A DNA stretch of 34,872 nucleotides from Sphingomonadales bacterium (GTDB lineage Bacteria; Pseudomonadota; Alphaproteobacteria; Sphingomonadales; Sphingomonadaceae), in the NCBI GenBank assembly GCA_027489695.1, contig JAIXZK010000022.1, positions 1 to 34,872 on the forward strand, written 5' to 3'. Below the pieces are notes generated by a model that was given only the letters and a program-made list of their open reading frames with translations, did no database searches and was not told the DNA's origin. The translations under genes and the position numbers were made by a program. This document shows, one piece after another, positions 8,391 to 10,035 of the stretch; positions within the stretch are counted from its first letter, which is position 1; each line of letters starts with the position of its first letter.

Positions 8391-9059
8391 TCAGCCCGCC
8401 GCCCGGCGCTGTTCCTCGGTCAGCGCGTCGAGGCGGGCGCGCAGCGTGTCGATCTCGCAGCGCAGCAGCTCGAGCTTCTGCGTCTCGGGATCATATTTCT
8501 GCGAGCATGGCGTGCCATAGGGCAGGAACGGCTTCTGGTAATCGCCGGCGTCGACGGGCACCGGCTTTGCCGGAATGCCGACCATGGTGGCGCCTTCCGG
8601 CACGTCGCGGGTGACAACGGCATTGGCGCCGACGCGGGCGCGCCGGCCGACGGTGATCGGCCCCAGCACCTGGGCGCCCGACCCGATGATGACGCCGTCT
8701 TCCAGGGTCGGGTGGCGTTTGCCGGCAATGCCATTGGCGGGATCGGTGCCGCCCAGGGTCACGCACTGGTAGATGGTGACATCATTGCCGATCACCGCGG
8801 TCTCGCCGATGACGACGAAACCGTGATCGATGAAGAAGTTGCGGCCGATGGTGGCGCCGGGATGGATGTCGATCGCGGTCAGGAAGCGCGACAGGTGATT
8901 GACGATGCGGGCGAGCAGATAGAGCCGCATGCCGAACAGGCCGTGCGCGACCTTGTGCAGGCCGAGCGCCCAGACTCCCGGGTAGGTCAGGATTTCCCAG
9001 CGCGAGCGCGGCGCCGGATCGCGCGATTTCACCGAATCGAGATAGGCGAGCAACGCCAT
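8391..9059 (-). CDS. cysE: Serine O-acetyltransferase (EpsC/CysE family)
   Basis: [43 protein letters not shown]...[26 protein letters not shown] hexapeptide acyltransferase. Confidence 0.93.
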
Positions 9060-9176
9060 CTTCAGCCTCCGCCATCAGCCCGCCGCGGTGCCGGGTTTGC
9101 CCGTGTCGATCCTGCGGCGACAGGAACTTGAGTCCGACTCTACCGCGCTTGGCAAGCGCTGGCCAGTCTCGGGGTG

Positions 9177-9203
9177 GGAACGGTGCCCCAAGAAAACCGT
9201 TCC
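9177..9203. promoter_or_regulatory. Symmetric divergent EcfG-type (general stress sigma factor) promoter pair
   Basis: + strand: GGAAC (9177-9181)-N16-CGTT (9198-9201). - strand: GGAAC (9203-9199)-N16-CGTT (9182-9179). The unit is GGAACGGT-N11-ACCGTTCC. Confidence 0.6.
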
Positions 9204-9230
9204 ACCGGTGCAGCAGAAGTTGGGACAGCC

Positions 9231-9434
9231 ATGGCAGACGAACGCGCGCCCGCACCATCGGCCGGCAAGCCGGGCACCGCGGCGGGCGAAGGCAAGCCAT
9301 CCGAAGCCGGCACCGCCGGGGCGGCCCGCGCGGCCGCGCAGGACGGCCCGGACAAGGATCGCGACCGCTGGCATGCGTTCGATGAGGCTGCCGCGCGCAA
9401 GACCCGGCGGGAACAGCCGGACCCGGCGCGGTAA
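9231..9434 (+). CDS. Small hydrophilic, probably disordered hypothetical protein (67 aa)
   Basis: ATG at 9231: MADERAPAPSAGKPGTAAGEGKPSEAGTAGAARAAAQDGPDKDRDRWHAFDEAAARKTRREQPDPAR. Sits about 30 bp downstream of a consensus EcfG-type promoter and ends before a hairpin. Confidence 0.5.
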   Translation: MADERAPAPSAGKPGTAAGEGKPSEAGTAGAARAAAQDGPDKDRDRWHAFDEAAARKTRREQPDPAR

Positions 9435-9438
9435 GCTT

Positions 9439-9462
9439 CCCTCTCCCGCTTGCGGGAGAGGG
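9439..9462. repeat. Intergenic palindrome (CCCTCTCCCGC-TT-GCGGGAGAGGG), possible bidirectional terminator
   Basis: Perfect 11-bp inverted repeat with a TT loop between a + ORF and the - strand ahpD. Confidence 0.7.
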
Positions 9463-9516
9463 GGGTGTCGGCTCCGTTTGGCCTCAGCGCGCGGGCGCCC
9501 GCGAGCGGGAGCTATT

Positions 9517-10035
9517 TCAAATCGCCTGCAGCGTCCGCGCCACCGCATGGACGACCGACGCGATACGCACCGCGGCCTGGATCTTCTCGATCGCCATGCC
9601 GTGATTGGCCAGCACCTTGTCATGCGCATCGATGCACATGCCGCAGCCGTTGACCGCCGAGACGGCGAGGCTGAACAGCTCGAAATCGGCCTTGTCGATG
9701 CCCGGCGCGCCGATGACGTTCATGCGCAGCTTGGCCGGCATGGTGCGGTAATCCGGCCGCGAGGCGAGGTGGGTGAAGCGATAATAGATGTTGTTCATCG
9801 CCATGATGCTGGCGGCGGCCTTGGCGGCGGTCATCGCTTCCGGGCTCAGCTTGGTCGCCGCCTCTGCCTCGACGGCGTCGATCACCGGCTTGTAGGCGCA
9901 GGCATGGGCGACGGCGACGAAGGTGCCCCATTTCTGCTGATCGGTCAGCAGCTGTTCGGTGACCAGGCTGGAAACGTTGAGGCGCAGGTCCTTGGCGTAA
10001 TCGGGCAGCGTCTTGGCGAGTTCGGTGAAGATCAT
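9517..10035 (-). CDS. ahpD: Alkyl hydroperoxide reductase AhpD / carboxymuconolactone decarboxylase family
   Basis: AVSAVNGCGMCIDAHDKVL CxxC-H motif; next to ahpC. Confidence 0.93.
   Translation of the reverse strand: MIFTELAKTLPDYAKDLRLNVSSLVTEQLLTDQQKWGTFVAVAHACAYKPVIDAVEAEAATKLSPEAMTAAKAAASIMAMNNIYYRFTHLASRPDYRTMPAKLRMNVIGAPGIDKADFELFSLAVSAVNGCGMCIDAHDKVLANHGMAIEKIQAAVRIASVVHAVARTLQAI

Follow-up and report, generated by a model that had tools for sequence, protein, structure and literature searches.

Described promoter classes and the locus

Promoters of the alphaproteobacterial EcfG sigma factors (sigma-EcfG/SigT/RpoE2) have the form GGAAC-N16/17-CGTT. The N16 version is the GSR motif of the Sphingopyxis granuli regulon (PMC7083833), and in Sphingomonas melonis the motifs cluster less than 100 bp from the start codon (PMC6599016). 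Two other described arrangements are relevant here. The bidirectional promoters characterized in E. coli by Warman, Grainger and colleagues have a pseudo-symmetry by which the polymerase could bind facing either way, though not both ways at once; they share one symmetric -10, and their starts are commonly separated by 18 bp, with 10 and 23 bp also occurring (PMC12825309). In ordinary back-to-back divergent promoters using different sigma factors, divergent genes are each served by a promoter of their own; the arrangement predicted here is of this kind, with 8-16 nt between the -35 boxes.

The locus belongs to a Sandarakinorhabdus/Polymorphobacter-type sphingomonad, and the closest named relatives of its cysE are from Alpha proteobacterium AAP81b and from Polymorphobacter/Sandarakinorhabdus records. 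In the window (i.e. the whole 34.9-kb stretch of DNA analysed), the gene order is cysE (-), a 27-bp block, a 67-aa ORF (+), ahpD, ahpC and then a divergent LysR-type gene. The features of interest are the following:

8391-9059, minus strand: cysE, serine O-acetyltransferase, a hexapeptide-repeat protein (Pfam Hexapep) with orthologues throughout the order
9137-9165, minus strand: cysE promoter-like element (-35-like TGGCCA at 9165-9160, N17, -10-like TAGAGT at 9142-9137)
9177-9201, plus strand: predicted EcfG-type promoter of the small ORF (-35 GGAAC at 9177-9181, N16, -10 CGTT at 9198-9201)
9179-9203, minus strand: mirror GGAAC-N16-CGTT aimed at cysE, probably incidental (-35 at 9203-9199, -10 at 9182-9179)
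9231-9434, plus strand: 67-aa ORF (MADERAPAP...DPAR), beginning 29 nt past the -10
9439-9462, no strand assigned: perfect hairpin, CCCTCTCCCGC-TT-GCGGGAGAGGG, between the small ORF and ahpD
9517-10035, minus strand: ahpD-like gene of the carboxymuconolactone decarboxylase family (Pfam CMD), the right-hand neighbour

The block, at 9177-9203, reads GGAACGGTGCCCCAAGAAAACCGTTCC and consists of two perfect 8-bp arms on either side of an 11-nt spacer. Its description in an earlier note on this DNA was accurate: exact matching finds GGAAC-N16-CGTT at 9177-9201 on the plus strand and at 9203-9179 on the minus strand, each -35 shares 3 bp (AAC/GTT) with the -10 of the other strand, and the whole lies between cysE on the minus strand and the 67-aa ORF on the plus strand. 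These are the only two matches to the motif in the window, spacers of 15 to 18 being allowed. The same note proposed that the block is a built-in switch, i.e. a palindromic EcfG promoter that fires in both directions with a single polymerase at any moment, which would couple cysE to the small protein. We consider the two directions separately.

The rightward site and the general stress system

Conservation was assessed on the cysE upstream regions of 110 loci, of which 107 were long enough for testing. Of the 12 closest loci, eight carry a further gene in the cysE-ahpD interval; in the other four (L003, L007, L010 and L012) ahpD abuts cysE. The plus-strand site, aimed at the intervening gene, is exact (GGAAC-N16/17-CGTT) in six of the eight gene-bearing loci (L001, L004, L005, L008, L009 and L011). 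The other two have variants, GGAAC-N16-GGTT in L002 and GCAAC-N16-GGTT in L006; in the Sphingopyxis granuli regulon, GGTT is also used as -10 and GCAAC as -35 (PMC7083833). None of the four close relatives without the gene has the site. In the whole set, strict EcfG sites aimed away from cysE were found at 7 of 107 loci, against 0.07 expected. The distance from the -10 to the start codon is 29 nt in the window and 26-34 nt across the six exact loci, in keeping with the 24-60 nt seen at other EcfG targets of this genome, and the transcript would be expected to start around 9207-9210.

The genome also encodes the corresponding sigma factor system. On contig C193, phyR stands divergent to nepR, ecfG and a gene for a HisKA_2/HWE kinase; Pfam confirmed all four. 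A GGAAC-N17-CGTT motif is found 60 nt before nepR, and GGAAC-N16/17-CGTT motifs lie 24-49 nt before DUF1328, DUF3309, ferritin/Dps-like and pyridoxamine-oxidase-like general stress genes, and others; none of these sites is palindromic. From this gene content we infer that the organism uses EcfG promoters. The loose EcfG pattern is not enriched genome-wide (67 matches versus 124 for the reversed control). The bare motif is therefore uninformative, and it is only its position and its conservation that carry weight.

On both counts the plus-strand site resembles known EcfG promoters. It has the boxes, the 16-17 nt spacing and a place within ~100 bp of a start codon, it is conserved together with the gene downstream, and the PhyR-NepR-EcfG locus and stress-type downstream genes typical of the class are found in the same genome. 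It differs from the class by its mirror copy on the opposite strand and by the nature of the downstream gene, which is small and clade-restricted. The link proposed earlier between an EcfG-type promoter and the small ORF is thus supported by the conservation of the sequence and of the start-codon distance, and by the co-occurrence of site and gene; very probably, the block contains a real general-stress promoter driving a small stress protein.

The 67-aa ORF and its replacements

The 67-aa protein is rich in Gly, Ala, Arg and Asp, with a core of the type G-x-A-(G/V)...R...A / D-x-D-R-W. Between L001 and L002 the differences number 15, 18 and 34 at codon positions 1, 2 and 3, respectively, which indicates that the ORF is coding. 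No Pfam family matched the protein. Relatives exist in L002 and L005 and, more distant and recognizable by the D-x-D-R-W core, in L004, L006 and L011. A family-wide search with a profile of the small protein gave only chance-level matches beyond the genus; two of these, on inspection by eye, fall in an aspartate-carbamoyltransferase-like coding sequence.

In L009 (Pfam) and L071 (by eye), a PRC-barrel-type protein takes the place of the small ORF in the cysE-ahpD interval. In S. melonis, the top EcfG-dependent genes include one for a PRC-barrel protein (PMC6599016). At these two loci the EcfG-type promoter is kept though the gene that it would drive is different: the promoter persists and the gene changes. 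L006 has another arrangement, a 112-aa protein whose ORF lies 159 nt upstream of the cysE start and which resembles a fusion of an L008-type N-terminus (RPAYEIADY) with an L004-type DxDRW part.

The leftward mirror site

The conservation of the block in close relatives had been set beforehand as a test, and its outcome was split: the plus-strand promoter is kept, the palindrome is not. The mirror site has perfect GGAAC-N16/17-CGTT boxes. It is exact in two of the eight gene-bearing loci (L001 and L005) and degenerate in two others (TGTT in L008, GCAAC...TGTT in L006), and is missing in the nearest relative, L002, as well as in L004, L009 and L011, where the plus half alone is kept. Over the 107 loci, a strict EcfG site aimed at cysE was found at three (L001, L005 and L120). 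Conservation upstream of cysE in relatives, as expected of a cysE promoter, is thus not observed. The site is also 119 nt from cysE, beyond the usual, though not absolute, limit of ~100 bp from the start codon.

How easily such a mirror arises was estimated by dinucleotide shuffling of the 171 nt that separate cysE and the small ORF. A comparable inverted repeat with 8-bp arms appeared in 6% of the shuffles and the double motif in 1 of 20,000. Once a first EcfG site is present, a second, reciprocal one is cheap (~4% at 67.5% GC), because three more bases suffice, namely G after GGAAC and CC after CGTT; that these bases follow the two boxes of the plus-strand site is what makes the mirror perfect. 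A count over 24 genomes of the genus, for spacers 15 and 16 only, showed no enrichment of the palindromic form (9 occurrences versus 47 for the reversed control). Two of the six exact plus-strand sites are reciprocal, which is slightly above the 4% per site expected (P ~0.02 in a post hoc comparison).

Two other reciprocal sites were noted. One, GGAACGAAACACAATTGTTGCTCGTTCC, is a second intergenic reciprocal motif at G000:C295:5830-5857 (L172, ~1330-1358), flanked by an aminopeptidase-like gene and a MarR-like ORF which have the same direction. The other, in Rhizorhabdus histidinilytica (L120), is a GGAAC-N17-CGTT pair at 35-62 nt before cysE, where no divergent gene is present; it is possibly a true EcfG promoter of cysE in that lineage. 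Since each of these sites has a single possible target, the symmetry does not track divergent gene pairs. The mirror motif is probably a sequence accident, and not an evolved switch.

These data bear on whether anything is transcribed leftward from the block. Its minus-strand consensus is a perfect match, so that leftward firing by EcfG is possible, and divergent transcription arising from symmetry is widespread among bacteria (PMC12825309). An occasional leftward start at the mirror site, yielding a minor, unselected stress-inducible cysE transcript, can be entertained tentatively, as the less likely case: the mirror is unconserved, and the same symmetry occurs at the single-target sites of L172, in this genome, and of L120.

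A dyad may also be read as an operator bound by a dimeric regulator, such as one of the LysR or MarR type, rather than as a promoter. If one bulge is allowed, the arms of the block dyad lengthen to 11 bp (GGTGG(G)AACGGT / ACCGTTCCACC), and at L172 a similar dyad precedes the MarR-like gene. Across relatives, however, it is the promoter boxes that are conserved and not the dyad, for which reason we reject the operator reading as highly improbable.

Least probable of all, to the point of being nearly negligible, is that the palindrome terminates leftward read-through from ahpCD. The block is an inverted repeat, and there is a weak terminator-like call on the minus strand at 9218-9200. Yet the called stem is a different one, with only 3 GC pairs, and a better hairpin is available at 9439-9462; we rejected this reading because the 8-bp stem of the palindrome is followed by no T-run on either strand. 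The 9439-9462 hairpin has 11-bp arms, with one more exact copy of the stem in the genome (C264:3146) and a similar hairpin in L002. No Rfam match to a structured RNA was obtained within 8900-9700.

The promoter-like element of cysE

Alignment of the minus strand revealed TGGC-N19-TAAR upstream of cysE in nearly all loci of the genus, whether or not an EcfG site is present. The form TGGC-N18-20-TAnn occurs in 35 of the 107 cysE upstream regions, against 2.9 expected. From the EcfG -35 to the TGGC element there are 11 nt in the window, 8-11 nt in seven of the eight loci, and 16 in L011. The element matches sigma-70 poorly, so its housekeeping label is an inference; a standard sigma-70 scan called nothing there. 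A sigma-54 reading was dismissed on inspection: the TTGC stands nearer than it should by one base, and most relatives lack it.

One oddity concerns the Sandarakinorhabdus-like half of the genus (L013-L023), where an ahp-side terminator-like hairpin, AAAGGYCAG...CTGGCCTTTTT, includes the TGGC box. In that half, the ahp terminator-like hairpin and the cysE promoter may overlap, and the hairpin offers an alternative reason for the conservation of the box.

The earlier view of cysE as a second output of the same sigma factor is not borne out. Besides the distance and the patchy occurrence of the mirror, cysE has its own conserved promoter-like element, which is closer to it; judged from the sequences, the mirror motif would not be the main cysE promoter.

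Interpretation

From the above, the arrangement is quite probably that of a one-way EcfG promoter, directed rightward at the small gene, back-to-back with a separate promoter of cysE. Stress would free EcfG from NepR; the EcfG-RNA polymerase would then bind the plus-strand site and transcribe rightward into a stress-induced small protein of 67 aa (9231-9434). cysE would be transcribed leftward from its own element, presumably a housekeeping promoter, by a sigma-70-type polymerase. The footprints of the two polymerases would overlap, so that each could hinder the other and cysE might be held back at times of stress; any such interference would be between different sigma factors. Compared with ordinary back-to-back divergent promoters nothing is clearly different, the use of both promoters being here a prediction. 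An occasional leftward EcfG start is compatible with this one-way arrangement, which is why our confidences in the two overlap.

The switch proposed in the earlier note appears very unlikely. Apart from the perfect consensus on both strands, it could draw on the reciprocal site of L005, on its TGTT variant in L008 and on the E. coli bidirectional promoters, where one direction can be repressed when the other fires strongly (PMC12825309). Against it, the four relatives keeping only the plus half include the nearest one, the palindromic form is not enriched genome-wide, and cysE is 119 nt away with an element of its own. In addition, basal firing of the E. coli bidirectional promoters tested was too weak for polymerase competition (PMC12825309), and a shared sigma factor would be expected to raise both outputs together, not to choose between them. 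The likeness to these promoters is limited to a pseudo-symmetry that could let the polymerase bind facing one way or the other, but not both together. In the block, it is the -35 and -10 that overlap reciprocally, each direction has a -10 element of its own (9179-9182 and 9198-9201), the starts would be ~36 bp apart, the sigma factor is of the ECF type and the symmetry is unconserved; the shared symmetric -10 and the starts commonly 10-23 bp apart of the Warman/Grainger class are not found.

Similarly unlikely is a three-way interference node, in which the EcfG promoter, overlapping its own mirror and abutting the cysE housekeeping promoter, would set cysteine synthesis against the small stress protein under general stress. 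The block is better regarded as a predicted member of a known promoter class that happens to have a non-conserved mirror image, and as ordinary overall.

What the locus adds is a further predicted EcfG target, well conserved, in a sphingomonad genus that has been little studied, together with a small protein family named for testing. It illustrates that, in a GC-rich genome, symmetry can mimic a divergent switch. Two sigma factors may interfere here, and the conserved 8-16 nt that separate the EcfG site from the cysE element make this a modest case open to testing.
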